Below, piece after piece: positions 1,749 through 23,146 of a DNA stretch of 64,000 nt. Source of the DNA: Streptomyces sp. NBC_00704 (GTDB lineage: Bacteria > Actinomycetota > Actinomycetes > Streptomycetales > Streptomycetaceae); contig NZ_CP109000.1 of NCBI RefSeq assembly GCF_036226605.1, positions 868,001-932,000 on the forward strand, read 5' to 3'. A program made the position numbers and the translations under genes. Each line of letters opens with the position of its first letter. Position 1 is the stretch's first letter. The notes beneath the pieces were generated by a model. The model made no database searches. It was not told the origin of the DNA and was given only the letters and a program-made list of their open reading frames with translations.

Positions 1749-2159
1749 GTGGACTTCAGTGCTGTTCCACTACCGCCCGGCGACTTCACCATCGGGAAGA
1801 CGTTCAACTTCGAGGCTGGCCACCGGCTTCCCGGGCTGCCGGACGAGCACAAGTGCTCGCGCCAGCACGGGCACAGCTACGAGGTCGAGGTCATCCTCAC
1901 CGCACCCTCGCTGGAGGAGCCCGGCTTCGTCGCCGACTTCGGGGCGCTCGCTCCGTTCAAAGAGTTCCTGAACACCGAACTCGACCATTACAACCTGCAC
2001 GAGATTCTTCCCTTCGAGCCGACCTCGGAGCGCCTGGCCCAGTTCCTGGCCGGGTGGTTCCTCCAGAACCTTCAGCCCGCCATCCCCGGCCGCCTGGTCG
2101 CCGTCCTGGTCCGCGAGACCCAGAGCAGCTGGGCCCGCTTCGATGTGGAGGGACGGTGA
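1749..2159 (+). CDS. queD: 6-carboxy-5,6,7,8-tetrahydropterin synthase (QueD/PTPS family)
   Basis: The protein converts 7,8-dihydroneopterin triphosphate to 6-carboxytetrahydropterin, the second step from GTP to 7-deazaguanines. Zinc ligands are visible in FEAGHRL and in CSRQHGHSYEVEV, where C is the expected catalytic cysteine and HGH gives two more histidines; the DFG motif (VADFGALAPFKE) and LDHYNLH follow in the family order. Length (136 aa) is normal. The start is GTG at 1749 with GAAGGA upstream. The stop overlaps queE (GTGA). Within the PTPS family, a QueD role is supported by the QueE and FolE neighbours rather than by sequence alone. Confidence 0.85.
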   Translation: MDFSAVPLPPGDFTIGKTFNFEAGHRLPGLPDEHKCSRQHGHSYEVEVILTAPSLEEPGFVADFGALAPFKEFLNTELDHYNLHEILPFEPTSERLAQFLAGWFLQNLQPAIPGRLVAVLVRETQSSWARFDVEGR

Positions 2160-2902
2160 CCGCATTCGAGCCGATCACCGACGAACCGACGGCTGACGAA
2201 GGCGAATCCCGCCTGATCGTCGCGGAGTGCTTCGGCGTCGAGGTACCGACCTTCCAGGGCGAGGGACCGAGCTGCGGACACCCGGCGCTGTTCATCCGCC
2301 TGTCCCGGTGCAACCTCACCTGCGCGAAATGCGACACGAAGTACACCTGGGACTGGTCCCAGTTCGATCCGCGCAAGGAGTCGGCGAAGCAGTCGGTGGC
2401 GGACCTGGTGGCCTGGGCCGCGTCCTCGCCGGTCGAGCTCGTCGTGATCACCGGCGGCGAGCCGTTGATCCAGCAGGCGCGACTGGTGCCTCTCGTCCGG
2501 GGACTGACAGCAGCCGACAAGCGGATCGAGTTCGAGACGAACGGCACCATCGCGCCCGCTCCCGAGCTGGTGGCCGACGGGGTCCGGTTCAACGTCTCGC
2601 CCAAGCTCGCCAGCTTCGGCGTGAAGGAGACCAAGAGCATCGTGCCCGCCGCGCTGGAGTCGTTCGTGTCGTCCGGGCGGGCGGCGTTCAAGTTCGTCGC
2701 TTCCACGGTGGCCGACCTCGACCGGATCGCCGAGCTGACCGACACCTACCGGCTCGCGCCGGTGTGGGTGATGCCGGAGGGCACCATCCCCGAGGTGATC
2801 ACCGCGACCACCCGGGTCCTCGCGGACGCGGTCGCGGCCCGGCACTGGCACTTCACCACCCGCCTTCACGTGTTGGCCTTCGCGGACGCCCGAGGCCGCT
2901 GA
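2156..2902 (+). CDS. queE: 7-carboxy-7-deazaguanine synthase (QueE, radical SAM)
   Basis: Radical-SAM enzyme that rearranges carboxytetrahydropterin to 7-carboxy-7-deazaguanine (CDG). The [4Fe-4S] site is CNLTCAKC (CX3CX2C), preceded by the substrate motif PTFQGEGPSCGHPALFIRLSR split over the N-terminal part; the SAM-binding TGGEP, the FETNGT strand and the NVSPK motif are all present in order. 248 aa is the usual QueE length. I chose GTG at 2156 because it overlaps the queD stop (GTGA), which predicts tight coupling of the two steps. Confidence 0.88.
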   Translation: MTAFEPITDEPTADEGESRLIVAECFGVEVPTFQGEGPSCGHPALFIRLSRCNLTCAKCDTKYTWDWSQFDPRKESAKQSVADLVAWAASSPVELVVITGGEPLIQQARLVPLVRGLTAADKRIEFETNGTIAPAPELVADGVRFNVSPKLASFGVKETKSIVPAALESFVSSGRAAFKFVASTVADLDRIAELTDTYRLAPVWVMPEGTIPEVITATTRVLADAVAARHWHFTTRLHVLAFADARGR

Positions 2903-2959
2903 CCGCAGGGGCCACCACGCCCCATCCGTTCCCCCAGTCCCCGGAAACGAGAGACGCCC

Positions 2960-3589
2960 ATGACGACCTCTATCGCCAGCCCTGCGGCGGCGCCGACCGC
3001 CGCCGTCCCCGGGCCCGCTGCGGTCATCGACACCGGCCGGGTCGCCGGCCTGATCCACCAACTCTTGGCCGAGCTGGGCGAGGACCCCGCCCGCGAGGGG
3101 CTGACCGGCACCCCGGACCGCGTCGCGGCCTGGTGGAAAGCCTTCCTGTCCCCGGACGGCGCCGCAACGGCCACCTGCTTCACCGAGTCCCAGCTGGGTG
3201 GTCAGCTGGTCATCGTGGGCGGCATGAGCGTGTGGTCGCTCTGCGAGCACCACATGCTGCCCATGAACTTGCAGGTCACGGCCGGATACGTGCCGGATGG
3301 CGAGGTGGTGGGCCTGTCGAAGTTCGGGCGGATCGCCCAGCACTTTGCCGGCCGACTGCAGGTCCAGGAACGCTTCACCCGCCAGGTCGCCGAATACCTC
3401 AACGGCGTGATCGGACACGAGGACGTCGCCGTCGCCGTGCGCGGCGTGCACCTGTGCATGAGCATGCGGGGCGTACGGATGGAGGAGGCCCGCACCACCA
3501 CAGTGCACTCGGGCGGGCGCTTCGGCACCGACCCCGTCCTTTCCCAGCAGTTCCTCACCCTCACCACCGGCCTGTGGGGGGCGCCGTGA
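2960..3589 (+). CDS. folE: GTP cyclohydrolase I (FolE)
   Basis: Catalyses GTP to 7,8-dihydroneopterin triphosphate, the entry step for both folate and 7-deazaguanines. Zinc ligands appear as CEHHMLP and as the C-terminal cysteine in HLCMSMRG; the TPDRVAAWW and VGLSKFGRI motifs are typical. 209 aa. Residues 1-25 are a low-complexity Ala/Pro tail. A dedicated copy placed after queDE suggests a pathway-specific GTP drain rather than housekeeping folate synthesis. The start ATG has GGAAACGAGAG upstream, and the stop overlaps the next gene (GTGA). Confidence 0.88.
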   Translation: MTTSIASPAAAPTAAVPGPAAVIDTGRVAGLIHQLLAELGEDPAREGLTGTPDRVAAWWKAFLSPDGAATATCFTESQLGGQLVIVGGMSVWSLCEHHMLPMNLQVTAGYVPDGEVVGLSKFGRIAQHFAGRLQVQERFTRQVAEYLNGVIGHEDVAVAVRGVHLCMSMRGVRMEEARTTTVHSGGRFGTDPVLSQQFLTLTTGLWGAP

Positions 3590-4413
3590 TCACCACTGCG
3601 GGAATCGACTTCTCCGTCATCGCTCCGCCTGCCTACCTGGAGCACTTCGTCGCCCAGGAGCCGGCCCGCGTCCACCACGTGGCCGCCCAGCACGTGCTGT
3701 CCGACGAGATCTACCGGGCCTTCTTCGCTCGCGAGGCCGAGCGAGGCGCCGAGATCATCGTCGACAACGGGCTCTTCGACCTCGGCTACGCCCTGCCGGC
3801 GGAGCGCCTCGTCGAAGCCGCGCTGGCGGTGTCCGCGAGGGAGATCATCCTGCCGGACGTCATGCGGGACGGGGCCGCGACCTTGAAGGCTAGCGAGAAG
3901 GCCGCGCGCGAGATCCGGGAGCTGTCCGGCGATGCATTCCGGCTGTGCGCGGTGCTGCACGCCGCGGACGATGACGAGTGGCTGCGCACCTACGACGCCT
4001 TCGTGACCAGCGACTGGGCCGGGGCCATCGCTCTGCCGGCCTCGCGTCGACCGGATCCCGACGAGCAGCTGTGCCGGACCCGCTGGGTGGCGACGGCCTA
4101 CCTGCAGGACCACGGCCTGCTCGACGATCTGCTCGTCTACCGGCTGCTCGGTCTGGGCCGGACCGGGCACCTGGAGCTGATCGAGCAGCGCGAGCACGAG
4201 TGGATCTCCTCCGTGGACAGCGCGGCCCCGGTCATCCTCGGCGCGATGGGCGTCGCCCTGCTGCCCGAAGGGCCCTACGAGAAGCCCTCCACGCCCCGCA
4301 TCGAGAAGCTCGGCCCGATCCCCGAAGACCGGTTCGACCTCATCCGGGAGAACATCTGCGTCGTCCGCGCGGCGGCCGGCAGCACCGTGACGATCGCCGA
4401 GGAGCACCGATGA
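3586..4413 (+). CDS. Short tRNA-guanine transglycosylase/DpdA-like TIM-barrel protein
   Basis: 275 residues, GTG start coupled to folE. Signs of the TGT superfamily: VDNGLFDLG sits where TGT has its DSGGFQ base-binding motif; DWAGAIALPA resembles the GYAIGGL strand; VYRLLGLGRTGHLELI matches the HLLGLG-type strand; SSVDSAAPVILGAMG resembles the late DS motif carrying the catalytic region. It is much shorter than bacterial TGT (about 370 aa) and no C-X-C-X2-C zinc site is seen, which is closer to DpdA-like or archaeal-like divergent members. TGTs swap guanine for a 7-deazaguanine in RNA, DpdA in DNA. What this one acts on (RNA, DNA or a free nucleoside) is open. Coupled ATGA to the next gene. 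Confidence 0.6.
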   Translation: MITTAGIDFSVIAPPAYLEHFVAQEPARVHHVAAQHVLSDEIYRAFFAREAERGAEIIVDNGLFDLGYALPAERLVEAALAVSAREIILPDVMRDGAATLKASEKAAREIRELSGDAFRLCAVLHAADDDEWLRTYDAFVTSDWAGAIALPASRRPDPDEQLCRTRWVATAYLQDHGLLDDLLVYRLLGLGRTGHLELIEQREHEWISSVDSAAPVILGAMGVALLPEGPYEKPSTPRIEKLGPIPEDRFDLIRENICVVRAAAGSTVTIAEEHR

Positions 4414-5489
4414 CCCCCTTACTGGCCGACCCCGCCCCCGGACTCCTGCGCGCCGCCCCGATCGAACCAGCCGGGCACACCATGACCCACGCGAGGCTGC
4501 TGCGCTACCTGGAGATCAAGGTTCACCACCTCATCCAGGACCATGACTGGGACAGCATCCGCGTCATCGGCGGCTACGACCGCACGGCGGTGGTCTCCCG
4601 GTACGAGAAGACCGGGAAGCTGTTCAACATCGAACGGCCCACCGCAGAGGTCCACGGCCGTGACCTCGTCGTCAAGGCGTTCCCCGGAGCCGACTACGTC
4701 CAGCACTACGCCCTGATCATCGCCACGTACCTGGCCATGACCGGCCGCCCCGTCGGCACCGTCACCTATCAGCCGCCCGAGCAGGAGGAGTGCCGAACGG
4801 CGCTCGACGCGCTTGGCCTGGAACTGGACGGCGACCTGGTGATCGTCGGCTGGGGCCTTCAGTACCTCGCTCCCGAGAACGGAGTGTGGACCCGCGGGCC
4901 CGGCTACGCGTGGCAGCGCACCGAGGTCGCCGGCCGTCGCGTGGTCTACCTCGGGTTCCTCCACAGCATCTGGGGAGACGTGGCCGGACGGGTCGTCGCG
5001 CGCCTTGCCGAACTCGGCGCAGGCGATGTCGTCTACGTCGGCAAGGTCGGCTCGCTGACCCCTGGTGTCGAACCGAACGCCTGGCTGGCGACCGGCAACA
5101 CCAGCCTGATACGCGGGGCGATGGTGAGCTGGGACGACTTCTTCGGCGACTACGCCGCCGCCCACGAAGGGGTGCGCAGCGGCCTGCACGTCTCCTCCCC
5201 GTCGATCCTGCTGGAGAACCGCGACTGGCTTCTCCAGCACACCGCCTCGTACGCCTTCGTCGACCCGGAGATCGGCCCCATGGGGGCGGCGGCGCGCCAG
5301 GCGGGGATCAGATTCGGTTACCTCCACGTCATTTCCAACAACCTCGCCACCCACTATCCCGCCGACCTGTCCAATGAGCGGCACGGCGACGTCCTGCGCC
5401 AGCGGGCCGTCCTGGTGGACCGCATCCGCACCATCATCACCGGCCGCCTGACCTCCAGCCCGACCCACACCCTGGGAGAGTCCCGATGA
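4410..5489 (+). CDS. Nucleoside-phosphorylase-superfamily-like protein with a TTA codon
   Basis: 359 residues. The C-terminal half looks like a purine-nucleoside-phosphorylase fold: GDVVYVGKVGSL (phosphate/base loop), WLATGNTS, FVDPEIGPMGAAARQAG (where the family has the ribose-binding M-E-x-A helix) and FGYLHVISNNL (the R-x-x-SDN strand). The N-terminal half (VIGGYDRTAVVSRYE) is unfamiliar. Codon 4 is TTA (4419-4421), so translation should depend on the bldA tRNA, as is usual for Streptomyces development and secondary metabolism genes. Placed between the TGT-like and kinase genes with ATGA overlaps on both sides, it probably handles a 7-deazapurine base or nucleoside. Direct phosphorolysis is inference. 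Confidence 0.55.
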   Translation: MTPLLADPAPGLLRAAPIEPAGHTMTHARLLRYLEIKVHHLIQDHDWDSIRVIGGYDRTAVVSRYEKTGKLFNIERPTAEVHGRDLVVKAFPGADYVQHYALIIATYLAMTGRPVGTVTYQPPEQEECRTALDALGLELDGDLVIVGWGLQYLAPENGVWTRGPGYAWQRTEVAGRRVVYLGFLHSIWGDVAGRVVARLAELGAGDVVYVGKVGSLTPGVEPNAWLATGNTSLIRGAMVSWDDFFGDYAAAHEGVRSGLHVSSPSILLENRDWLLQHTASYAFVDPEIGPMGAAARQAGIRFGYLHVISNNLATHYPADLSNERHGDVLRQRAVLVDRIRTIITGRLTSSPTHTLGESR

Positions 5490-6178
5490 CGGCGAACGCG
5501 CCGACCACCCCCGCAGCCGGGAAGCTGATCACCTTCGTCGGCGGTGACGGGGCCGGCAAGTCGACCCTCGCCGCCCGCCTCTACCAGGCCCTGAACGACG
5601 CCGGCCACACGGCAGTCCTCATCGGCAAGCACAGCAGCGACGTCCCCCAGGACCCGGAGCTGTCCGCCTACCTCGACCGCCTCAACGAGCTGGTCTACCG
5701 GCGCGACGCCCGCGTCGCTCAGGCATGCGGCGACCACTACTGGCTGCTGGCCCTGGCCTCCTGGTACACCCTGCAGGACCGGCTCGTCATCCAGCTGGCC
5801 CTCGCCGCGGGCACCCACGTGATCCTCGACAACGCGCACCACAAGATTCTCGCCCGGTACGCGGTCAACCCTGAAATCTCCTCCCGCCTGTGCGAGCAGG
5901 TCTTCGCGCATCTGACGAAGCCGGACCTGGTGTTCCTCCTGAACATCGGTGCCCGCGAGGCTCTCGTCCGCAAGGGCTCGTTCACTTCCCTGGAGGCCGG
6001 CCACGCCGGCGGCGGTGACGAGGACTTCATCCGCTACCAGGACACCGTGCTGGACCAGATGCGCGAACAGGCGCAGCGCGGCGCCTGGCTGACGCTGGAC
6101 GTCGCCCAGTTGGACCGCGACCAGGTCTTCAAGGCCGCCGCCGCCGCTCTGGCCGACCGTCTGCACCTGACCGTCTGA
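5486..6178 (+). CDS. Thymidylate-kinase-like P-loop nucleotide kinase
   Basis: 230 aa. Walker A is VGGDGAGKSTLA near residue 19; a DNAHH motif (VILDNAHHKIL) fits the second acidic site of dTMP-kinase-like proteins, and KPDLVFLLNIGAREALVRKG resembles the LID-side strand P-D-(L)-x-hhL-x(2)-x(2)-A-x-x-R. It likely phosphorylates a nucleoside or nucleotide produced by the preceding enzymes. Ends the ATGA-coupled run folE to kinase. Substrate specificity cannot be read from sequence. Confidence 0.65.
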   Translation: MTANAPTTPAAGKLITFVGGDGAGKSTLAARLYQALNDAGHTAVLIGKHSSDVPQDPELSAYLDRLNELVYRRDARVAQACGDHYWLLALASWYTLQDRLVIQLALAAGTHVILDNAHHKILARYAVNPEISSRLCEQVFAHLTKPDLVFLLNIGAREALVRKGSFTSLEAGHAGGGDEDFIRYQDTVLDQMREQAQRGAWLTLDVAQLDRDQVFKAAAAALADRLHLTV

Positions 6179-6214
6179 CCCAGCCCTCTCTCCCCGATCG
6201 ACAAGGAACGCACC

Positions 6215-7144
6215 ATGGACCAGGACCTGCCCGCCAGTGGGACATACGTCTGCCACGGCATCACCTGGGCAAGCGGAGACCCCCGTCTTCTACTCGCCCC
6301 CGTGCCCGGCGGACCGCTTGTCTACGCCCCGGTCACGGGCAGGCGCCTGGGTTACCAGGTGAGCGGTACCGGCCGGTGGTGCACCGGCCGGTACCGGTTC
6401 GCCGACCGCGTCCGCGTCGAGGCGGTCGCCTGCCCTGACCGGGCCCCGGCCGAGGCCGGCGGCCAGTGCGCGGCCTGCGCCGGGCGGGACGACTTCCGCT
6501 TCGCCCACCGGTTCCACTCCGGCGGGCACGTTCCCGACGCCCTGGCGGCGTACATGGCCCAGCCGCACTGGCTGTACCTGGCGACGTTCGCCGACGGCAC
6601 CACCAAGATCGGCACCGCGGCCGATCCCCGTAAGCGCTCCCGCCTCGACGAGCAGGGCGCGCTGATCGCCACCTACCTCGCCCAGAGTGCTGACGGCCGC
6701 GCCGTGCGGTTCCTGGAGGATGCCCTCACCCGCCGCCTCGGCCTGACGCAGACCGTGCGAGCCGCGGCCAAGCTGACGGCCCTGGCCGAGCTGCGCGACC
6801 TCGCCCCGGCCGGCGCCGCCCACCAGCAGCACCTCGACCGCGCCACCGAGGCCCTGAGCGGCCTGAACGTCCCGGCCACGCCGGAGCCGTGGACGCCACC
6901 CGGCGAGGGCGACCTACTACGGACGCCGGAGGCCAGGTGCGCCTTGTACCCGCACGATCCACGGGCGGGTGAGCACGGGCTGACGGTGCTCTCCTGCCTC
7001 GGCTCCCAGGTCCTCGCCACCCTCGACGGCGACGGTGAACAACTGCCCTACCTACTCGACCTCGGCGCCCTCAAGGGCCGCCGCATCGTCCTCGGCGCCC
7101 AGTTCTCCTCACCGCCCGCCGTCGTACAGTCCGTGCTCTTTTGA
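6215..7144 (+). CDS. DUF2797 family protein
   Basis: 309 aa with an AAGGA ribosome site. A cysteine pair in GGQCAACAGR precedes HWLYLATFADGTTKIGTAADPRKRSRLDEQG (split here by position about 125-155), a strand-loop-strand that resembles the GIY-YIG-like core of DUF2797, followed by a helical region and a C-terminal beta domain. The family has no established function. Its place directly after the nucleotide kinase suggests it belongs to the same operon. An almost perfect palindrome lies inside the gene (see 6364-6396). Confidence 0.55.
   Translation: MDQDLPASGTYVCHGITWASGDPRLLLAPVPGGPLVYAPVTGRRLGYQVSGTGRWCTGRYRFADRVRVEAVACPDRAPAEAGGQCAACAGRDDFRFAHRFHSGGHVPDALAAYMAQPHWLYLATFADGTTKIGTAADPRKRSRLDEQGALIATYLAQSADGRAVRFLEDALTRRLGLTQTVRAAAKLTALAELRDLAPAGAAHQQHLDRATEALSGLNVPATPEPWTPPGEGDLLRTPEARCALYPHDPRAGEHGLTVLSCLGSQVLATLDGDGEQLPYLLDLGALKGRRIVLGAQFSSPPAVVQSVLF
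6364..6396. repeat. 15-bp-arm near-perfect palindrome inside DUF2797 gene
   Basis: Arms of CGGTACCGGCCGGTG and its complement are separated by only three bases (GTG). It falls in coding sequence (SGTGRWCTGRYRF). It could form a very stable hairpin, possibly attenuating the transcript or simply reflecting high-GC codon choice. Confidence 0.6.
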
Positions 7145-7203
7145 CCTGTCCGAACGCCCGGCCTGCACTGCCGGGCCGCCCTGAGAAGCGAGGCCACAGC
7201 AAC

Positions 7204-8049
7204 ATGGCACCCCAGGACGCCATCCTCGGCTGGGACGAGGACACCAACGCCGAGGCGTACAACACCTTCACCCGCGACCACCCCATGTACGACGCGACCA
7301 GCCGCGACCTCGCCCGCCGAGGCCATCTGGCCGACGCCAGCCTGGTGGTCGACCTGTGCGGCGGCGCCGGCGCGACCGCCCGCGCGATCCTCGACCTGAT
7401 CCCGGACCACGCCAGGGTCGTCTCCATCGACAACGCCGCCGCGATGCAGCGTGTCGGCCGCCGCACCCTGACCGACGCCCGCCTGACCTGGATCACCGCC
7501 CCGGCCGAACGGCTCGCCGACCACCTCCACGCCAGCAGCGCCGATGCCGTGGTGTGCAACTCCGCGATCTGGAAGACCGATACCGCCGCGGTGTTCGCGG
7601 CCGTCGCCCACCTCCTGCGCCCAGGCGGACACTTCGTCTTCAACATCGGTGGCGGCTTCGCCGGCGTCCGGCACCCCGATGAACTGTCCGCCCGCACCGG
7701 GCCTTCCCTGAACGCCCTCATCCGTCAAGTCGCCGCTGAGTGCCACGGATACACCCCGCCGCCGAAGGACGCGGACGGGCCGCCGAAGCTGCCGCTGGAG
7801 ACGGTTACCGAGCAGCTGTCAGCAGCCGGACTGACGGTCGTCGGCACCGAGGTCACCGCCCAGCACAGCACCATGGCCGAGAAGAAGGCGTGGCTGTCCA
7901 TCCCCGTCTTCGCGATGCCCGAGGGCGACTTCACCCACGCCCAGCGGATGCAGATCCTCGACACCGCCTACGCCATGACCACCCCCGATGCCCCGGCCGT
8001 GACGAGCTGGCTCGTCGTCGTCGCCCAACGGCCACAGGCCGCCGCATGA
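7204..8049 (+). CDS. Class I SAM-dependent methyltransferase
   Basis: 281 aa. The SAM-binding loop is VVDLCGGAGATARAIL, followed by the acidic end of strand 2 (VVSIDNAAAMQ) and LLRPGGHFVFNIGG for strand 5. The start is ATG 7204; an earlier frame opening overlaps the previous gene but lacks a good site. It is joined by ATGA to the NUDIX gene downstream. Substrate unknown; the context suggests a nucleobase, nucleoside or peptide product of this cluster. Confidence 0.75.
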   Translation: MAPQDAILGWDEDTNAEAYNTFTRDHPMYDATSRDLARRGHLADASLVVDLCGGAGATARAILDLIPDHARVVSIDNAAAMQRVGRRTLTDARLTWITAPAERLADHLHASSADAVVCNSAIWKTDTAAVFAAVAHLLRPGGHFVFNIGGGFAGVRHPDELSARTGPSLNALIRQVAAECHGYTPPPKDADGPPKLPLETVTEQLSAAGLTVVGTEVTAQHSTMAEKKAWLSIPVFAMPEGDFTHAQRMQILDTAYAMTTPDAPAVTSWLVVVAQRPQAAA

Positions 8050-8591
8050 CTCCGTCCGCCCCGGCTCCCGGCGGCGGGGCCCGCCTCTGTGACCACGCAA
8101 GCGTCGGGGTACTGATCTCCTCCCCGAGCGGCCTGCTGGTGTTCGAGCGGGCGACCCCTCCAGCCGGAATCGCCCCGGTCGCCGGTCACGTCGACGAGCA
8201 CGGCGGCCCCGAGCAGGCCGCCCGCGACGAAGTCACCGAAGAGGTCGGCCTCAACGTCACCCACCTGCACCTGCTGCTGGACCAGTGGCGGCCCAACCAC
8301 TGCCACCGCACGCCCAGCGGTCCGGTCGGCCACCACTGGTGGATCTTCCAGGCCGAGGTCTCCGGGGCGCTGTGCCCCTCGCCCCGGGAGATCCGCGCCC
8401 CTCGGTGGATCCACCCCGACCAGCTGCAGCAGCACGCGCTGCGCACCGCCGCGTACGCCAACGGATACCTGGACCGTGAGGAGTTCAAGCGCGAACCCGG
8501 CCTGGAGCCGGTGTGGTGCCGCTTCCTGCACGACCTTGAGCTCGTCACCCTGCCCTCGGCCGACCTCGACCGGATCGAGGCCGTCCTGTGA
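8046..8591 (+). CDS. NUDIX hydrolase domain protein
   Basis: 181 aa single NUDIX protein. The NUDIX box is GHVDEHGGPEQAARDEVTEE followed by VGL, in which the canonical R of REUXEE is replaced by D, while the metal-binding glutamates remain. NUDIX enzymes cleave nucleoside diphosphates linked to another group; here the substrate is unknown. Coupled ATGA to the upstream methyltransferase. Converges with the NUDIX gene on the other strand with 20 bases between the stops. Confidence 0.8.
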   Translation: MTPSAPAPGGGARLCDHASVGVLISSPSGLLVFERATPPAGIAPVAGHVDEHGGPEQAARDEVTEEVGLNVTHLHLLLDQWRPNHCHRTPSGPVGHHWWIFQAEVSGALCPSPREIRAPRWIHPDQLQQHALRTAAYANGYLDREEFKREPGLEPVWCRFLHDLELVTLPSADLDRIEAVL

Positions 8592-8611
8592 ACGGCGGCC
8601 AGGGGCCTACC

Positions 8612-9151
8612 TCAGCGGGAGCCGACCGCCCGGCCGGCTGCCAGACGGCGAGCGTGCGCACGGATCCGCTCGCGGTCCTCGGGGAAGACGCTGTCCCAGC
8701 TCGTGTCCAGACGGAACCATGCCGCCGGCTGGTTCTCCTCCCCGGCGAGCGGTACGTCGCGTCCGACGACCGCGGCGTAGGACAGGCCCAGCGTCGGAGA
8801 CCAGTCGGCCCGGTAGGAACGCACCGCCACGGCTGCGGGCTCGGGCAGCAGCACGCTGCGCAGGCCGGTCTCCTCCAGCAGCTCTCGTGCCGCCGCCGCA
8901 CGCGGTGCCTCGCCCGGCTCCACCTTGCCACCGGGCGGCACCCATCCGCGCACGCGGTGCTTGACCAGCAGGACGTGCTCGAAAGCAGGGTCGGTGACCC
9001 ACACCTCGGCCGCCAACGGCTCCATCAGATGCCGACGGGCTTCCTCCAGCCAGGCCCGTGCACCGTCGAACTCCCATGCGGCGAGGCGGGCATCCGCAAC
9101 AGCCTCGTCCAAGATCACCTGACCGACTTCACCATGATTCACCCGTCCCAC
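8612..9151 (-). CDS. NUDIX hydrolase
   Basis: 179 aa on the opposite strand to its neighbours. The NUDIX box is textbook (GGKVEPGEAPRAAAARELLE then ETGL), with a WVPPGG entry strand, so it should be catalytically competent. A helical N-terminal extension of about 45 residues precedes the domain. It is divergent from the + strand gene at 9285; the 133 bases between them must hold both promoters. It is one of eleven NUDIX domains in 13 kb. Confidence 0.85.
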   Translation of the reverse strand: MGRVNHGEVGQVILDEAVADARLAAWEFDGARAWLEEARRHLMEPLAAEVWVTDPAFEHVLLVKHRVRGWVPPGGKVEPGEAPRAAAARELLEETGLRSVLLPEPAAVAVRSYRADWSPTLGLSYAAVVGRDVPLAGEENQPAAWFRLDTSWDSVFPEDRERIRAHARRLAAGRAVGSR

Positions 9152-9284
9152 CCTAGGCCGACGAACTGGCCGGACGTCGCAGCGACGAGCAGGCAGCCAT
9201 CCGGGGGTGTGCGGCCGACCCGGTGGCCCCTTCGGGCTGCAGGGCGATCACCCGTGGCGCCCGCTTCACACGAAGGAGTCCAGC

Positions 9285-10493
9285 GTGCACGATGAGCAGC
9301 CCTTGGACCGGGGAGCCTGGGTCGTCCTCGGCGGCGTCCACCTCCTCAACCGCACCGCGCCACGGCGCCCAGACGAGCCGATCGTCCTCGTACGGGTGCC
9401 ACCGCAGGAGGTGTGCAGGCCGACCACCACCGTGGTCGTCCGCTGGAACGCGCTGGGGCCCTGCCCGGCCAAAGCGCTGCACCCCGGCGGGACCCGGCTC
9501 GGGGCGGCCAGGATCGACGGCGGCGAACTGTTCCCCGACGCCATCGCCGGCCCCGCCCTGCGCACCCTGGTCGGCACCGAGGCCGCCCCCAGCCTGGTGC
9601 CGCTGTGCTACCTGGCCGAACACCCTGGCGGCGGCTACCACGCGTACGCGCAGATCCGCTTCCACCCCGAGGACGCCTGCTTCGTCCGCACCACCCGAGA
9701 ACCAGTCGGCCATGGCCCGGTCGAGGAGCTGCGCTGGCTCGGGCCCGTGCTGACGGCGCACGCCGAGTCGGGCACGGCGCTCAACAACCACCTGCGGTAC
9801 TTCCGCAAGCACTTCTCCGGCACCGAGCTGGAGTTCAAGTACACCCTCGACCCGGCACCGGACATCTGGGCCGCGTCCATGGAACTGCTCAAGGCACTGC
9901 GCGACGGCAAGCTGGAAGGCTGCCGTCCGGAGTACCGGGAAGAGTTCCAGATCCACCACACCGAGAACCATCTGTTCGACGTCACCGGCCCCGAGCCCGA
10001 GATCGGCTACGCCTCCTTCATTCCCACCGTCACCGCCGGGCACGTGCTCAAGCGGAAGTGGTTCGCCGAGGACGCCTTCGCCCGCCGCGAGGAACTCACC
10101 TACGGCCTCGACATCGCCCCCGACCGCTTCGGGACGTTCCTGCGCGAGGACCTGGGCCTCCAGGTCCGGGCCATGCCGCCCTTCCAGCGCGTCCGTTACG
10201 ACATCCAGTGCGAGTCGCTGCGTACCGGACACGTCTACGGCATCTTCTTCGACCGCTGCGCCCTCCTCGCGGCGCCCGACGTGGTGCTCTCCCAGTGCGA
10301 GCTGGAGTACCTCCGCTCGCGCAGCATCCTCGACCACGACGACGACGAGGTCCTCGTCGAGATGAAGCGGATCGACAGCTGGCTCTGCGAGTACCTCGCC
10401 AGTCACGGCTGGGCGGCCGAGCACACCTTCTACTCCAAGCGCAGCTTCCTTCGCGACGCCGTCGCCTTCTGCCCGGACCTCGCTGTGCCATGA
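9285..10493 (+). CDS. Unknown protein with possible CYTH-like triphosphate-tunnel motifs
   Basis: 402 aa, GTG start with GAAGGAG. I do not recognise the family with certainty. The central part begins with GTELEFKYTL, which carries the E-x-E-x-K signature that opens CYTH (adenylate cyclase IV/thiamine triphosphatase) tunnels, and a later strand (SQCELEYLRSR) contains a second acidic E-x-E pattern near the end. CYTH enzymes bind triphosphates. The N-terminal 150 residues form a separate unknown domain. No signal peptide or membrane segment is seen. A CYTH role is a hypothesis. Confidence 0.4.
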   Translation: MHDEQPLDRGAWVVLGGVHLLNRTAPRRPDEPIVLVRVPPQEVCRPTTTVVVRWNALGPCPAKALHPGGTRLGAARIDGGELFPDAIAGPALRTLVGTEAAPSLVPLCYLAEHPGGGYHAYAQIRFHPEDACFVRTTREPVGHGPVEELRWLGPVLTAHAESGTALNNHLRYFRKHFSGTELEFKYTLDPAPDIWAASMELLKALRDGKLEGCRPEYREEFQIHHTENHLFDVTGPEPEIGYASFIPTVTAGHVLKRKWFAEDAFARREELTYGLDIAPDRFGTFLREDLGLQVRAMPPFQRVRYDIQCESLRTGHVYGIFFDRCALLAAPDVVLSQCELEYLRSRSILDHDDDEVLVEMKRIDSWLCEYLASHGWAAEHTFYSKRSFLRDAVAFCPDLAVP

Positions 10494-10542
10494 CCGGCCA
10501 GGCGGTCTCCGGCAATCCCCCGCAGGAGGTACCGCAACCCAC

Positions 10543-10623
10543 ATGAGTGATCGAACACAGCATCACAGCCCACCCTGCCCGGCCACAGAAGGAGAGGGCC
10601 CGGTATTCGAAATCAGGTTCTAG
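10543..10623 (+). CDS. Possible 26-residue ORF (leader or gene relic)
   Basis: Short ORF opening with MSDRTQHHS and ending FEIRF, 13 bases after an AGGAGG sequence. Its stop lies inside the inverted repeat at 10608-10629. It may be a leader peptide, a truncated gene or chance. Confidence 0.2.
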   Translation: MSDRTQHHSPPCPATEGEGPVFEIRF

Positions 10624-11720: not shown

Positions 11721-12096
11721 GCGACGCGCCTCACCTGCTGATCGCTGACGTGGCCCAGGTCCTGCTCCGTGCGAGCGGCGCCGCCCTGCGCGTATGTCGC
11801 AGACCGGACACGGCCATCGCACCAGGACAACTCACCGTCGTGGGTGGCCATCTGGAAACTGGCGAAACCCACGTACCCGGCGACGGCCCAGATCGGACAC
11901 CGCCGTGTTCGTCGCCCAGTCGTGGGCGGGCGAGCCGCACAACGCCGAGCCGGACAAGTACGAAGGGCTGTTCTGGGTGTCGATGGAAAAACCCTCGCCG
12001 GACTGCCACTCCTACACCACCGCCATCTTCCACATGCTCACCCACGGCCCGTCATACCGGGCTCTCAACTGGCCGACGCAGGGAGGCACCGAGTGA
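11717..12096 (+). pseudogene. NUDIX hydrolase, disrupted by internal deletion/frameshift
   Basis: The first frame reads a normal NUDIX start (HLLIADVAQVLLRASGAALRV... then QLTVVGGHLETGET) and then loses sense around 11870. The family's C-terminal half (VFVAQSWAGEPHNAEPDKYE, then GLFWVSMEKPSPDCHSYTTA) continues in another frame from about 11900 to the stop at 12096. The helix of the NUDIX box is missing, so this looks like a deletion that also shifts the frame. Both ends keep their overlaps (GTGA at 11717 and with the ABC gene), which shows it was once a regular operon member. Confidence 0.65.
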
Positions 12097-14081
12097 AGCG
12101 ATTCTTCGGCAAGGTCCGCATGGCGGAGCCCCAGGTCTCCGAGGCAGAACGCGAGCTCTTCGGCGGGCCGTTGCGCTACGACATGGGCTGGTCCCAACAC
12201 GAGCACGCGGGCCTGGACTTGACCATGCGATCGGCGCTGCGACAGATGCCCAGACTCGTCGGCGCTGCCCTGCGGATGGCCTGGAGCGCGGATCGCCGCG
12301 CGCTCGTGGCGGTGGCGATCAGCGAACTCGGCCAGGGCATCGCCGCCGCGGTCGGCCTGCTTGCCATCAACGCGGTCATGCACGCGCTGTTAGGGGGCGG
12401 AGACGCTGTCGAGAGGCTGCACGCCTTGCTGCCGGGCCTGCTCGCCGCCGCAGGCGCCGCCGTCGTGAACTCCGCCCTGGCCGGCTGGTCGACCTCGCGG
12501 GCCGGCCGCCTTGAGCCGAAGGTCGAGCGGATCGCCACCACGCAATACCTGGCCGCGGCCACCACCGTTGAACTCGAAGCCATCGACGACCCGGAGTTCC
12601 GGCGTCTGATCGACATCGCCCAGTACGGGCCCGCCTCCGCGCGCCGCATGATCGGCGCCTGTGTCTCCGCGCTGAACAGCAGCATCTCGCTGATCGCTAC
12701 GGCCGGTGTGCTCACCGTCCTGCATCCAGCGCTGCTGCCCATGCTGCTGGTCATCGCCGCGCCCCGCGGTTGGGGCGCCATGCGGGTGGCGCAGGAGCGC
12801 TACGTGTCGATGATGAGCTGGATCGAGCATCTGCGGGCCAGCCGCCTCATCGGCAACCTCCTCACCGAACGCACCGCCTCACAAGAAGTGCGCATCCACG
12901 CCGTCGGTCCCTTCCTCCTCGACCGGTACCGGCGCATGGCCGCCAGCGCAGAGGCGGAGCAGGAACGTCTGGCCTCCAGCAAGGCCGTCACCGAATGGGT
13001 CGCCTCCGCGCTGTCCGGGCTGGCGATGGCCGCCACCTACGGAACGATGATCTGGCTGGTCATGGCCGGTCACATGAGCCTCGCCGTCGCCGGCACCGCA
13101 GTGATCGCGGTGCGGACCGGGTCGGCGAGCCTGGGCGCACTGGTGATGAACATCAACCAGCTGCACGAAGAGTCGCTCTACGTGCGGGACCACGGACAGT
13201 TCCTGGTCGAAGCTGCCCAACGCGCCATCCCCCAGACCGGCAACCCCGTCCCTGACCAGGTCAAGCAGGTCTCCCTGGAACACGTCACCTACCGGTATCC
13301 CGACCGCGACGCACCGGCCTTGGACGACGTCACGCTCACCTTCCCCATGGGGTCGGTCACCGCCGTCGTGGGCGAGAACGGCTCCGGCAAAAGCACCCTG
13401 ATGAAGATCCTGTCCGGTCTGCTGCTGCCTCACGACGGCACGGTGAAGTGGGGCGAGGCCGACATCTCCCAGCTGGAACGGGCTCAGGTCTTCCACCGCG
13501 TCTCCCTGCTCACCCAGGACTTCCAGCGCTGGCCCGTCACGGCCGCGATGAACATCCGCATCGGCCGCCCCGACCACGACGCCTCGGCCCACGACCTGCA
13601 GCAGTCCGTCGACTACGCCGGAGCCGGGCCCGTCACCGCCAAACTCCCCAACGGGCTGGACAGCATGCTCGGCCGCATGTTCCGCGGAGCCATCGAACTC
13701 TCCGGCGGGGAATGGCAGAAAGTGGGTCTGGCCCGCACCCACTGGCGTAGCTCAACATCGCAACTGGACAGCGTCCTCATCGTCGACGAGCCCACCTCCG
13801 CCCTCGACCCCGAAGCCGAGATCGCTGCCTTCGACCGCATCCGGCGCCTCGCCGCCCCGCACCGGGCCGTCGTCCTGGTCACCCACCGCATGTCCGGCGT
13901 CCGCCACGCCGACCACATCTACGTCCTCAACCAAGGGCGCCTCGTCGAGCACGGCATCCACGACAACCTCATGGCCTCAGGCGGGCGGTACGCCGCCATG
14001 TTCGCCACCCAGGCCGCCCAGTACGCCCCGACCCCGAACGTCCCGAAGCCTGCTTCGCCCAGCGTCTTAGACCAGGCATGA
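12093..14081 (+). CDS. ABC transporter, fused permease and ATPase (exporter type)
   Basis: 662 aa. Residues about 65-310 contain the membrane helices of an ABC exporter half-transporter; the nucleotide-binding domain follows with Walker A GENGSGKST, Q-loop LLTQDFQRWP, signature LSGGEWQK, Walker B VLIVDEPTSALD and the switch histidine in VLVTHRMSG. The loop before helix 1 is long (about 60 residues). GTG start overlaps the NUDIX relic stop. A TTA codon occurs at 12390-12392, suggesting bldA control. Probably homodimeric and likely exports the cluster product or confers self-resistance. Confidence 0.85.
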   Translation: MKRFFGKVRMAEPQVSEAERELFGGPLRYDMGWSQHEHAGLDLTMRSALRQMPRLVGAALRMAWSADRRALVAVAISELGQGIAAAVGLLAINAVMHALLGGGDAVERLHALLPGLLAAAGAAVVNSALAGWSTSRAGRLEPKVERIATTQYLAAATTVELEAIDDPEFRRLIDIAQYGPASARRMIGACVSALNSSISLIATAGVLTVLHPALLPMLLVIAAPRGWGAMRVAQERYVSMMSWIEHLRASRLIGNLLTERTASQEVRIHAVGPFLLDRYRRMAASAEAEQERLASSKAVTEWVASALSGLAMAATYGTMIWLVMAGHMSLAVAGTAVIAVRTGSASLGALVMNINQLHEESLYVRDHGQFLVEAAQRAIPQTGNPVPDQVKQVSLEHVTYRYPDRDAPALDDVTLTFPMGSVTAVVGENGSGKSTLMKILSGLLLPHDGTVKWGEADISQLERAQVFHRVSLLTQDFQRWPVTAAMNIRIGRPDHDASAHDLQQSVDYAGAGPVTAKLPNGLDSMLGRMFRGAIELSGGEWQKVGLARTHWRSSTSQLDSVLIVDEPTSALDPEAEIAAFDRIRRLAAPHRAVVLVTHRMSGVRHADHIYVLNQGRLVEHGIHDNLMASGGRYAAMFATQAAQYAPTPNVPKPASPSVLDQA

Positions 14082-14104
14082 CCCGCTCGACCGAAAGGCA
14101 GAGC

Positions 14105-15244
14105 ATGTCCTCCTCTCTCCCTCCGTCAGCACGAGTTGCATCGCAGTCCGCCTTGTCGGCAGCGCAGCACGCCGCAACCCGGCACGCGGTGTGGCTCGGG
14201 GCCGCCGCGATCATCACCGACCAGGTCGGCCGCGTCCTGCTGGTCCACCCGACCTACCGCGAGGACGACCGGTGGCTGCTGCCCGGCGGAGTCGTCGAAC
14301 CCGGCGAACACCCGCACGCCGCCTGCCAGCGCGAAATAACCGAGGAACTGGGCCTGGCGGACCTGACCCTGTCGGGCGTGCTTGCCGTCCACTCCCTCTC
14401 ACAGCACCACCCAGACATCAGGCCCGCCGCGCCCTGCCCCGGAGAGATCCGATACGTCTTCGACGGCGGAACCCTCACCCTCGACCAAGCGAAGGTGATC
14501 CGCCTGCCTCGCGAGGAGCTGTCCGAGTACGCCTTCCTCGAAACCCGGGACGCGGTGCAGCAGCTGCGTCCCGTGGACGGGCAGATCATGCTCGCCGCCT
14601 ACCGTGCCCGACTCGGGAACACCGCCACCGCTCACCTCGCCGACGGCCGGCACATCCTCGACGTCCCGGCGCTGGATCGCCATGACGTCCACGTCCGCTA
14701 CCGGCCCATGTGGGACAGTCCCCTCAACCGTGGCCCTGTGCCCGAGCGGCTCCCCGTGCAGCAAGCCTGGGCGTGGTGCTTCGTTCCCGACGGCCGGGTC
14801 GCCCTCGTTGCCGACCCCGCCCCCCGGGGCGCCCTGCCCATGCTGCCAGGCGGCACCGTGGAGAAGGCCGATACGACGCCCGAGGCAGCCCTCCACCGCG
14901 AAGCCGCCGAGGAAGCCCAGCTCACCCTGACCGACCCGGTGCGACTGGGCTGGGTGCTCGACGAGACTGGCGAGGTCTACGGCGGGGTGGGGCCCAATGC
15001 CAGGCTCCGACTGGCCGCCCGTGTCACCGGCATCGGGCCGGCAGCCGACGACCCCGCCACCGGCCGCCCCTTCGCACGCCTGCTCGCCACCCCCGCCCAG
15101 GCAGCCGCCCTGCTCGGATGGGGCCCGCCGGGGGCGCGGCAAGCCCGCCTCGCCACTGAAACGGCCAGGGAGCGCTGGGGCCTGCCCACCGCTGGCCCCA
15201 CCGCCATCGAGGAAGTCCCGGCGGAGGGGATGCAGCTGAGCTGA
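14105..15244 (+). CDS. Tandem double NUDIX protein
   Basis: 379 aa with two NUDIX domains. Domain 1 (about residues 25-170) has a perfect box, GGVVEPGEHPHAACQREITE then ELGL. Domain 2 (about 205-330) has GGTVEKADTTPEAALHREAA then EEAQL, where the final G of the box is Q. I prefer ATG 14105 (site GAAAGG) over the in-frame ATG at 14078 that overlaps the ABC stop; both are possible. The second domain may bind rather than cleave. Confidence 0.78.
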   Translation: MSSSLPPSARVASQSALSAAQHAATRHAVWLGAAAIITDQVGRVLLVHPTYREDDRWLLPGGVVEPGEHPHAACQREITEELGLADLTLSGVLAVHSLSQHHPDIRPAAPCPGEIRYVFDGGTLTLDQAKVIRLPREELSEYAFLETRDAVQQLRPVDGQIMLAAYRARLGNTATAHLADGRHILDVPALDRHDVHVRYRPMWDSPLNRGPVPERLPVQQAWAWCFVPDGRVALVADPAPRGALPMLPGGTVEKADTTPEAALHREAAEEAQLTLTDPVRLGWVLDETGEVYGGVGPNARLRLAARVTGIGPAADDPATGRPFARLLATPAQAAALLGWGPPGARQARLATETARERWGLPTAGPTAIEEVPAEGMQLS

Positions 15245-15298
15245 AGCAAACGCCCCCGCCTTGACTCGTCCCGCATCGCGCCCCTCTGAGGTACCCCC

Positions 15299-16789
15299 AT
15301 GCCGCTGTCGCACCACCACATCCGCACCACCGTCGAGACCTACCTCGCTCGCCACCCTCACGAGCGACCACAGCTCGCCGGCCTCCTGGAAGCCCTCCAC
15401 CGGCCCACCGACATCGCCAGCCGCTCCACCTTCTCCGGACACGTCACCTGCGGCGCCATCGTCGTCGACCCCCTCGGCCGCGTCCTGCACGTGCTGCACC
15501 TTGCGAGCGGGAAGGTACTCGCTCCAGGCGGACACGCCGAATCCGACGACCAGTCCCTGGCAGAGGCGACCCTGCGGGAGCTGCACGAGGAGACCGGGAT
15601 CCCACCCCAGGCCGTGGCACCGTGGCCCGGCTACGAGGCCATGCCGTTCGACATCGACATCCACAACATCGACGCCCACCCAGGCAAAGGCGAACCCAGC
15701 CACCAGCACTTCGACTTCCGCTTCCTCTTCCGCCTACGCACCGCCACAGAGGTGCCCGTGGTGCTGCAGGAAGAAGAAGTCGGCGGCATCGAGTGGCGGT
15801 CCCTAGACAAGGTGGCCTCCCCCTCCCTGCGCGACAAGCTGCTCAAGCTCACGCCCGCCGTCGAACCGGAGACGGCCAACGCCTCCGCCCTGATCTACAA
15901 CGACCGCGGTGAATACCTGCTCCACCTGCGCGACTACTTCCCCGGCCAGATCTGGGAGCCGGGCATGTGGTCGCTCCTCGGCGGCGGCCGAGAACCCCAG
16001 GACACCACCCTGGAACACACCGTGCGACGCGAACTCGACGAAGAAGCCGGACTGCACATCCCCGACCTGACCCCGTTCGGCACCGAGGAAGCGGTCGACG
16101 CCGCCGGCGCGACCCTGCCCATCGCCATCTACGCCGGCACCTGGAACGGCGACCCCCGCGAACTCCGCCTGACGGAAGGAGTGATGCTTGCCTGGTTCAC
16201 TCCCGATGACCTCCACCGGCTGCGCATCACACCATCCACCAGCGACCTCGTGCGACGCCACGCCGCCACCTCCCCAGCCATCGCGTCCACTCTCACCTCG
16301 CACGTCGCCCACTCATCGGTAGCCGAGCGTCGACCGGCCTCTCCCAGCGGCACCGTCCCCAACGTGATCGGCGTCCACCTCTATCTGGAGCGCCCCGACG
16401 GAACAGTGCTGCTCGGGCTTCGCCACCCCGATTCCGCGTTCGCACCCTCCACCTGGCACACCCTGGCAGGCCACTGCGAGCAGGAATGCGCCATCACGTG
16501 CCTGATCAGGGAGGCACGCGAAGAGGCCGGCCTACTGATCGAGCCGCAGGACGTCGAACTCGTCCACGTTGTCCACCTCGTCGACCGGGTCGGGGACCAG
16601 CCTCGCCTGGGGCTCTTCTTCCGCGCTCGGGCCTGGAGGGGCGAGCCGCAACCATGCGAGCCGGCCAAGTGCACCGAGTGGAGATTCTGGGACCCGACCG
16701 CACTCCCGGCAGCCCTCGTCCCTTACACCCGGGGCGTCATCGAAGCCATCCGCGCCGGTCACCTCTACTCGGAGACAGGATGGGCATGA
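15299..16789 (+). CDS. Triple NUDIX protein
   Basis: 496 aa carrying three consecutive NUDIX domains: box 1 GGHAESDDQSLAEATLRELH then EETGI (about residue 77), box 2 GGGREPQDTTLEHTVRRELD then EEAGL (about 225), box 3 AGHCEQECAITCLIREAREE then AGL (about 390). All keep the paired glutamates, so all three may be active. Each domain resembles standalone NUDIX proteins found in Streptomyces biosynthetic islands. Three in one chain is unusual. The stop overlaps the start of a 25-residue ORF (ATGA). Confidence 0.8.
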   Translation: MPLSHHHIRTTVETYLARHPHERPQLAGLLEALHRPTDIASRSTFSGHVTCGAIVVDPLGRVLHVLHLASGKVLAPGGHAESDDQSLAEATLRELHEETGIPPQAVAPWPGYEAMPFDIDIHNIDAHPGKGEPSHQHFDFRFLFRLRTATEVPVVLQEEEVGGIEWRSLDKVASPSLRDKLLKLTPAVEPETANASALIYNDRGEYLLHLRDYFPGQIWEPGMWSLLGGGREPQDTTLEHTVRRELDEEAGLHIPDLTPFGTEEAVDAAGATLPIAIYAGTWNGDPRELRLTEGVMLAWFTPDDLHRLRITPSTSDLVRRHAATSPAIASTLTSHVAHSSVAERRPASPSGTVPNVIGVHLYLERPDGTVLLGLRHPDSAFAPSTWHTLAGHCEQECAITCLIREAREEAGLLIEPQDVELVHVVHLVDRVGDQPRLGLFFRARAWRGEPQPCEPAKCTEWRFWDPTALPAALVPYTRGVIEAIRAGHLYSETGWA

Positions 16790-16863
16790 GCCACCGCCGC
16801 AAGCTCGTCGAGGCCCTCCGTCGCTGCATCCTCGCCTTGCGCCCGTGGGAACTGGCCGTCTAA
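16786..16863 (+). CDS. Possible 25-residue peptide downstream of triple NUDIX gene
   Basis: ATG overlaps the preceding stop (ATGA). The peptide begins MSHRRKLVEALRRC and ends RPWELAV: basic, with one Cys and one Trp, able to form an amphipathic helix. It sits directly before the gene with an FxLD/PCMT-type methyltransferase domain. It could be a peptide product, a coupling ORF or chance. Confidence 0.3.
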   Translation: MSHRRKLVEALRRCILALRPWELAV

Positions 16864-16926
16864 GCCGGCACCCCGCCTGATCTCTATCCGTGTACCCGCC
16901 CCTGGCCTCGCCGTAAGGATGCGCCG

Positions 16927-19248: not shown

Positions 19249-19254
19249 GCGCCC

Positions 19255-20124
19255 ATGAGTGATCCGGTACCCGACCCGGTCGAGCCGCAGCACCGGCTGG
19301 GCCTGTACGAGCGTTACTACGCCCAGGTGGAATCCGGCCGCAAGACCATCGAAGTCCGGGTGCGCACGCCCCGGATAACAGGCGTCGCGGTCGGCGACGT
19401 GCTTGTGTTCCACGGCGAAGAGTCGGGGCGCGAACTCGACGTGAGGGCCTCCCGGATCACGCCGTACGCCTCGTTCGCCGAGCTGCTCGCCGCCGAGGAC
19501 GTCGCCCGCATCGACCCTGACAGCACTCGCGCGGAGCAGCTCGTCAACCTGCGCCGTATCTACCCGCCGGAGAGGGAGGCGCTGGGGCCGCTCGCGATCG
19601 AGTTCGACCACCGGCCGGCACTCGCGGGGCAGCCCATGTCCCTGTCCGCCGAGGCGTACGTCCAGACCGTTCCGCACCACACGGTGTACGGCTGCTTCTA
19701 CGTACGCGACGACCACGATCGGCCCGTCCAGTTGCGTTCGGTGTACGGCGGTCGACCCTGGCAGTTTCCCGGCGGGAACACGGATGCCGGCGAGGATCCC
19801 CTGGAGACCGCGCGCCGCGAGACGGCCGAGGAAACCGGGCTCCACCTCGGCCGGGGCCAGCTCCGTCTGCTGCTGACGCACTACCTCCACCCCGGGCCCC
19901 GCTGGCCCATGGGCAAGATCGGCTTCATCTTCGACGGCGGCACCCTCACCGCTGAACAGCTGCGGCAGATTCGCCTCGATCCGGCCGAGCACGACCTCTG
20001 GGCGATCCACGGCCTCGACGAGTGGCGACGCCTGATGGGCAAGGAGGCGTTCGCCCGCCTGGAGGCCGTCGAACGGGCTCGCGCCGGTAGCGGCCCGCAG
20101 TACCTCGTCACCGGTCCCGCCTGA
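19255..20124 (+). CDS. ASCH domain - NUDIX fusion protein
   Basis: 289 aa. The N-terminal half (about 15-115) looks like an ASCH domain (YYAQVESGRKTIEVRVRTPR, then GDVLVFHG), an RNA/modified-nucleoside-binding fold whose members include N4-acetylcytidine amidohydrolase. The C-terminal half (about 135-270) is a NUDIX domain with a full box, GGNTDAGEDPLETARRETAE then ETGL. The pairing suggests recognition plus hydrolysis of an unusual nucleotide. Strong ribosome site; six bases after the previous stop. Confidence 0.72.
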   Translation: MSDPVPDPVEPQHRLGLYERYYAQVESGRKTIEVRVRTPRITGVAVGDVLVFHGEESGRELDVRASRITPYASFAELLAAEDVARIDPDSTRAEQLVNLRRIYPPEREALGPLAIEFDHRPALAGQPMSLSAEAYVQTVPHHTVYGCFYVRDDHDRPVQLRSVYGGRPWQFPGGNTDAGEDPLETARRETAEETGLHLGRGQLRLLLTHYLHPGPRWPMGKIGFIFDGGTLTAEQLRQIRLDPAEHDLWAIHGLDEWRRLMGKEAFARLEAVERARAGSGPQYLVTGPA

Positions 20125-20150
20125 CCCCACCCCTCCCCTTTGGAGTTTCC

Positions 20151-22621: not shown

Positions 22622-22665
22622 CCAAGCCCACCCGGACCCGGGCCGCACACCACAAGGAGATACCC

Positions 22666-23146
22666 ATGGAACGCGCACACATGGCCACCGCGGATGACGC
22701 CGCCGAGATAGCCCGCCTGCGCTCCGACCTCATCCTGTCCGAGCCTCTCGACGATCACTGGCTAGCCCCCTTGCGCCACGATGCTGGCCGAGCGGCTGGC
22801 GCCCGGCGGCGATGCCCGCGCCTACGTCATCGACGCCCCGACCAGCGGACTCGCATCCTGCTCGCTCGGCCTCATCCACCCTGTACTGCCCGCCCCGAAC
22901 TACGCCAAGGGCCGCGCGGCACACATACACGCCGTCGCCACCGAACCGGCCTTCCAACGCCGCGGATGCGGCAAAGCCACCCTCGCCGCCCTCCTCGACC
23001 GATTGGAACGAGACGGCGTCACCCTCTGCGAGCTCTACGCCAGTGAAGGCTCCGCACCGCTGTATGCCGGCCTCGGCTTCGCGAGCAACCCCGCACTGAT
23101 GCGCATGACCCACTTCCCAGCACCGTCCTCACCCGGGACATCCTGA
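22666..23146 (+). pseudogene. GNAT acetyltransferase with a one-base frameshift
   Basis: ATG at 22666 has an AAGGAGA site and reads MERAHMATADDAAEIARLRS then DLILSEPLDDHWLAP. At the C-run near 22768-22772 the sense moves to another frame (from ATMLAERLAPGGDARAYVID), which then shows the acetyl-CoA loop QRRGCGKATLAALL and the LYAGLGF end. One extra C explains the shift. It may be real decay or a sequencing error in a homopolymer. Confidence 0.7.

Follow-up and report, generated by a model that had tools for sequence, protein, structure and literature searches.

A mobile actinomycete gene module combines enzymes of 7-carboxy-7-deazaguanine synthesis with a DpdA-like protein of predicted transglycosylase fold

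A stretch of 64,000 nucleotides from Streptomyces sp. NBC_00704 (NZ_CP109000.1, positions 868,001 to 932,000; hereafter the window) carries a unit of about 11 genes at 1749–10493 that brings together enzymes of the 7-carboxy-7-deazaguanine (CDG) type and a DpdA-like protein with the fold of tRNA-guanine transglycosylase (TGT). The genes, which encode QueD, QueE, FolE and the proteins that we call P4 to P11, all lie on the plus strand except for the convergent P10. The unit is conserved, selected and mobile, it is unlike the known gene sets with which we compared it, and it is probably an undescribed system of nucleic-acid or nucleotide modification. The initial annotation had described a module of six genes, QueD to P6, at 1749–6178. 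These six open reading frames are present at the coordinates given, with overlapping or near-overlapping ends, and do belong together, but the end was placed too early, as P7 to P11 are also part of the unit, to about 10493.

The QueD-like 6-carboxytetrahydropterin synthase (1749–2159) matches PTPS at 6.3e-26 and the QueD model at 7e-22, the latter below the NCBIfam cut-off, and contains the motif KCSRQHGH. Its gene overlaps at GTGA with that of a QueE-like CDG synthase of the phage-type radical S-adenosylmethionine (SAM) family (2156–2902; phrog_2076, 3.9e-52), whose CX3CX2C motif reads CNLTCAKC; FolE, a GTP cyclohydrolase I with the motif CEHH (2960–3589; GTP_cyclohydroI PF01227, 1.9e-49), follows. 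Catalytic motifs read directly from these three proteins, their family matches and the close packing of their genes agree with what had initially been reported. No QueC was found near any copy of the module in a search with a working positive control, and the host genome returned only a fragment of 68 positions (23 bits); TGT (PF01702) had no match anywhere in the host genome. Given that no copy has a QueC nearby and that the host lacks TGT, the 7-deazaguanine supply should stop at CDG. The operon QueE is the only QueE of the host genome, and its nearest counterpart among phage records is an actinophage QueE of about 40% identity.

P4 (3586–4413) is a short protein that, taken alone, has no significant match in Pfam or NCBIfam, including the Pfam TGT model PF01702, and its profile finds no TGT among PDB sequences. 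An AlphaFold2 model built from 37 sequences (pLDDT 92) nevertheless predicts a TGT-type TIM barrel: its best 50 Foldseek matches in the PDB are all tRNA-guanine transglycosylases (best E value 5.6e-8). Consistent with this placement, hhalign of the P4 profile gave 83% against actinobacterial TGTs and at most 2.2% against eight unrelated decoy profiles. Residues D60, D91 and D211 align with the TGT aspartates of DSGGFQ, FDE and FDC and are invariant in the 37 sequences; by TGT residue roles, we take D211 to be the nucleophile, D60 the second catalytic aspartate and D91 the base-binding aspartate. The zinc region of TGT, with its CxCxxC site, has no counterpart in P4 by alignment or profile comparison. 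The TGT-like motifs first noticed in this product are thus borne out by the predicted fold and by the three retained aspartates.

DpdA inserts 7-deazaguanines into phage DNA (PMC6884629). A single-sequence search of IMG/VR with P4 came back empty, but an alignment-based search recovered relatives at 29 viral loci, many of them adjoining FolE, QueC, QueD or QueE. Among 94 proteins flanking these relatives, Pfam identified FolE (12), QueC (8), radical SAM (8), MazG (8), QueD (7), QueF (5), dNK (4) and thymidylate kinase (3). The best named match among viral models is from Cellulophaga phage phiST (TM 0.78/0.83), in which the gene order is QueD-QueE-FolE-MazG-hypothetical-ATPase-P4 homologue and no QueC is annotated within 20 kb of the homologue. 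Flavobacterium phage immuto has the order QueD-QueE-phosphoribosyltransferase-FolE-pyrophosphohydrolase-'DpdA'-formyltransferase-thymidylate kinase-QueF, and in Bacillus phage BSP7 the homologue lies within a QueC-QueD-QueE-FolE cluster. The nearest kin of P4 are short phage proteins whose genes lie next to those for QueD, QueE and FolE, for MazG pyrophosphohydrolases and for nucleotide kinases. In a tree, the actinomycete copies group into a single clade, apart from the viral sequences but next to them (98/94 support); the tree has long branches, and its join to TGT is unsure. At positions equivalent to those for base recognition, P4 departs from the viral consensus, with H125 for Gln, A149 for Gly, A152 for Lys and R186 for His. 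We considered the Lys-to-Ala change at 152 as a signature of CDG and rejected it: phiST keeps the usual Gln and Lys despite having no QueC annotated nearby, so the pocket changes are not a simple CDG signature. Later work has reportedly distinguished additional DpdA subgroups and detected CDG in the DNA of phages. Two side observations concern phages. In Bacillus phages BSTP5, BSTP10 and BSTP12, P4-like proteins go under the annotations integrase/recombinase, polynucleotide kinase or NadR, even though the homologue in the related BSP7 is encoded in the 7-deazaguanine cluster just described. Relatives of the immuto thymidylate-kinase-like protein turn up in 89 records of Streptomyces phages and in 17 of Campylobacter phages.

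P5 (4410–5489) is a PNP-like protein whose N-terminal ~150 residues fall outside the family assignment. All 19 relatives examined show PNP_UDP_1 in their C-terminal part at relaxed E value (best 4.6e-6), and the copy in the window scores 20.5 bits, under the Pfam cut-off of 25.1 bits. A weak uridine phosphorylase match spans the part preceding the PNP_UDP_1 region, so that the two halves are collinear with one PNP domain at about 167–333; hhalign gave 30%, with decoys at 8.5% or less. By eye, the invariant E287 sits where PNP-fold enzymes have the ribose-binding Glu, and N310 where many of them have an Asp contacting purine N7; as a 7-deazapurine lacks N7, Asn in place of this Asp would fit. 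P6 (5486–6178) is a thymidylate-kinase-like P-loop kinase (Thymidylate_kin PF02223, 1.3e-9; PDB profile match, 2.1e-12) in which, by alignment, LDNAHHK replaces the DR motif. The initial calls of a nucleoside-phosphorylase-like protein and a P-loop nucleotide kinase therefore stand, and the products of 3586–4413 and 4410–5489 prove to be TGT-type by model and PNP-like by profile rather than of unrelated folds. We found no viral relatives of P5 or P7 and no close phage relative of P6.

P7 (6215–7144) belongs to DUF2797, a family found in 17 of 17 relatives and matched at 97% when P7 was compared with other DUF2797 proteins by hhalign; it has a conserved Cys cluster and, in a partial model, a β-β-α-β-α domain. 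A GIY-YIG assignment for this domain, whose topology fits by eye, found no support and is kept only as a visual lead: the full model is poor (pLDDT 53), Foldseek gave a best E value of 1.0 and hhalign at most 1%, although the hhalign control pair failed too. Most Streptomyces genomes tested (L098 and others), as well as Haloferax volcanii, also have a second, ordinary DUF2797 protein. P8 (7204–8049) is a class I SAM methyltransferase (Methyltransf_25, 3.9e-12), and P9 (8046–8591; NUDIX, 1.4e-15) and P10 (8612–9151, minus strand; NUDIX, 1.3e-15) are Nudix hydrolases. P11 (9207–10493, with its true start at about 9285–9309) is a conserved protein of ~400 residues and unassigned family, 65–94% identical among relatives. 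Neither Pfam nor the PDB gave a significant match for it, and a CYTH/TTM relationship, suggested by an ExExK-like motif seen by eye, found no support from hhalign (0.5%). An apparently conserved open reading frame on the minus strand at 9153–10544 was dropped as a shadow of P11.

The module is not a chance assembly. We collected 33 P4 loci from contigs with one genome per species, distributed over Streptomycetaceae, Streptosporangiaceae, Thermomonosporaceae and Pseudonocardiaceae. QueD through P8 are complete in 31 of these, so the gene order seen in the window is conserved elsewhere; P10 is retained in 29, P9, lost from some copies, in 25, and P11 in 17. One incomplete locus is broken after P5 (L034), another is a P4 remnant (L036), and P5 is shortened in a further copy (L012), indicating that the module is also being lost. 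Three Streptomyces plasmids also carry the gene set, two of them without P9, and QueE precedes QueD in three loci. Pseudonocardiaceae copies have a QueD and QueE of another lineage (38–48% identity) beside P4–P8 that are still 61–76% identical, which indicates that the CDG supply was swapped, not lost. The module is a rare one of soil actinobacteria: it occurs in 3 of 100 relatives and in 2 of the 397 Actinomycetota genomes, with the genome of the window counted in both. We compared synonymous (dS) and nonsynonymous (dN) divergence between the window and L005, L008 or L010. Here dS is 0.25–0.59 for upstream genes and 0.35–0.57 for QueD, falls to 0.14–0.26 in QueE, and is 0.06–0.15 from FolE to P11, beyond which genes drop to 42–82% identity. 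The low dS shows that FolE–P11 was exchanged as one unit, and dN well below dS across the block indicates that it is under purifying selection. Elsewhere, the window shows other signs of mobile DNA, a DDE transposase and a MobA/VirD2-like relaxase at 28040–29416 and 36179–37921. Outside the conserved module, a Nudix-rich gene run at 14189–21359 encodes two- and three-Nudix-domain proteins and fusions of Nudix with a PCMT methyltransferase, of ASCH with Nudix and of a methyltransferase with Nudix.

As the initial annotation proposed, the set corresponds to neither the dpd nor the toyocamycin-type gene sets: none of the signature genes of dpd, toyocamycin or tubercidin systems is found among the module proteins. 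Bacterial dpd islands (dpdA–K) resemble the operon in pairing a DpdA-type protein with a 7-deazaguanine supply at a mobile locus, whereas QueC, the DndB-like DpdB, DpdC and dpdD–K were not found in the module, whose P4 escapes the Pfam TGT model. The toyocamycin and tubercidin clusters likewise contain FolE, QueD and QueE, and the latter also a Nudix enzyme and a kinase; the operon instead has TGT- and PNP-like proteins and lacks phosphoribosyltransferase, GMP reductase, UbiD decarboxylase and an exporter. It comes close to the phage short-DpdA clusters of phiST, immuto and BSP7, in which QueD-QueE-FolE adjoin a short TGT-superfamily protein; phiST and immuto also have an NTP pyrophosphohydrolase and a nucleotide kinase nearby, and phiST shares the lack of a nearby annotated QueC. 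The operon differs from these in residing on bacterial chromosomes and plasmids, in its additional P5, DUF2797 protein, P8 and P11, in having Nudix enzymes in place of MazG, and in a P4 that is only 21–28% identical to its phage counterparts, with altered pocket residues. A search of the open literature found no description of such a cluster.

We also identified a sister cluster on actinomycete plasmids (L072, pFRL3, 11986–23005; L073, 9980–21021; L074, 8960–19108). Its CDG cassette is 84% (QueD), 82% (QueE) and 89% (FolE) identical to that of the operon. Behind the cassette come genes for a phosphoribosyltransferase, for two thymidylate-kinase-like proteins and a radical SAM enzyme, and for a DegT aminotransferase, a HAD protein, SAICAR synthetase, an RNase T-like exonuclease, DsbA, a methyltransferase counterpart of P8 (62% identity) and a Nudix protein. 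The two clusters thus have in common the CDG cassette, P8 and thymidylate-kinase-like and Nudix proteins, whereas the phosphoribosyltransferase, aminotransferase, SAICAR synthetase and RNase T-like exonuclease take the place of P4, P5, P7 and P11. The sister cluster looks like an undescribed 7-deazapurine nucleotide pathway. Because it has a P8-like enzyme and no transglycosylase, P8 likely acts on a small molecule common to both clusters, CDG or a CDG nucleotide.

The reading that we favour, and to which we give just short of an even chance, is that the operon places CDG or methylated CDG into nucleic acid, probably DNA. Going by families and motifs, FolE, QueD and QueE would convert GTP to CDG, where supply would end for want of a QueC, and P8 would probably methylate CDG or its nucleotide. 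P4, by its fold and residues, may then serve as a zinc-less DpdA-type transglycosylase that, following the TGT mechanism, exchanges guanine for the CDG-derived base. P6 and the Nudix enzymes would manage the pool of 7-deazaguanine nucleotides, as MazG and kinases probably do in the phage clusters, and P5 would cleave or recycle 7-deazaguanine nucleosides. Supporting this reading are the TGT fold and phage kin of P4, the 7-deazaguanine gene context of its viral relatives, the operon QueE as sole QueE of a host without TGT, the lack of QueC near the copies, the movement of FolE–P11 as a unit and the lack of any transporter or exporter conserved across copies. Several points weigh against it. DNA is a putative substrate of P4, and because the base pocket of P4 differs from that of its phage kin, the substrate may differ as well. 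P5, the two Nudix enzymes and the kinase would also suit a free nucleotide, P8 has a counterpart in the sister cluster, which employs a phosphoribosyltransferase and no transglycosylase, and dpd restriction genes are not linked to the module.

The main rival, which we consider rather unlikely though far from negligible, is that the product of the operon is a free 7-deazaguanine nucleotide or nucleoside, serving as a specialised metabolite or an intracellular signal. In this scheme P5 and/or P4 would add ribose to CDG, P8 a methyl group and P6 phosphate, and the Nudix enzymes would trim the product, for which a cadeguomycin-like CDG nucleoside is one candidate. P5, P6, P8, P9 and P10 all belong to families that act on small nucleotides, and the sister cluster joins an 82–89% identical cassette and its P8 homologue to a phosphoribosyltransferase and the further enzymes listed above; tubercidin synthesis includes a Nudix enzyme, TubG, and relies on TubE to couple CDG with phosphoribosyl pyrophosphate (PMC6112128). 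The sporadic distribution among actinomycetes is also that of antibiotic clusters. However, phage clusters pair P4 homologues with a kinase and pyrophosphohydrolases, so such genes alone are no argument for a free metabolite. The module also lacks phosphoribosyltransferase, UbiD decarboxylase, GMP reductase and a conserved exporter, and the TGT-superfamily enzymes known so far act on polynucleotides.

An alternative in which P4 puts CDG or a methyl derivative of it into tRNA or some other RNA would accord with the tRNA-guanine transglycosylase fold and with a host that, having no TGT, leaves the tRNA site free. We think this improbable, as P4 is missing the zinc-binding part of TGT, its kin are phage DpdA-type proteins, and no tRNA gene or Rfam RNA was found at the locus. 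A restriction-type anti-phage system, in which P4 would mark host DNA and P7 and/or P11 attack unmarked DNA, would suit a mobile, sporadic module and the Cys cluster and GIY-YIG-like look of P7, but is very improbable given that profile and fold comparisons lend GIY-YIG no support, that most Streptomyces tested have an ordinary DUF2797 copy and that PADLOC matches are weak and generic only.

It is possible, though on balance doubtful, that one or other of two novelties is at hand: a TGT-superfamily enzyme that has moved away from polynucleotides and uses base exchange to supply a new nucleotide pathway with a free 7-deazaguanine nucleotide, or a DNA base derived from methylated CDG, which would be the first of its kind in bacteria. 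If our interpretation holds, the operon would extend the routes to CDG-derived nucleic-acid bases or nucleotides by a bacterial one carried on plasmids, in genera that are mined for antibiotics. It would also offer a testable role for DUF2797 and for a DpdA-type enzyme whose base pocket has changed. Seen beside the sister cluster, it shows one CDG cassette feeding two different downstream pathways, making the origin of such bases and nucleosides accessible to experiment.

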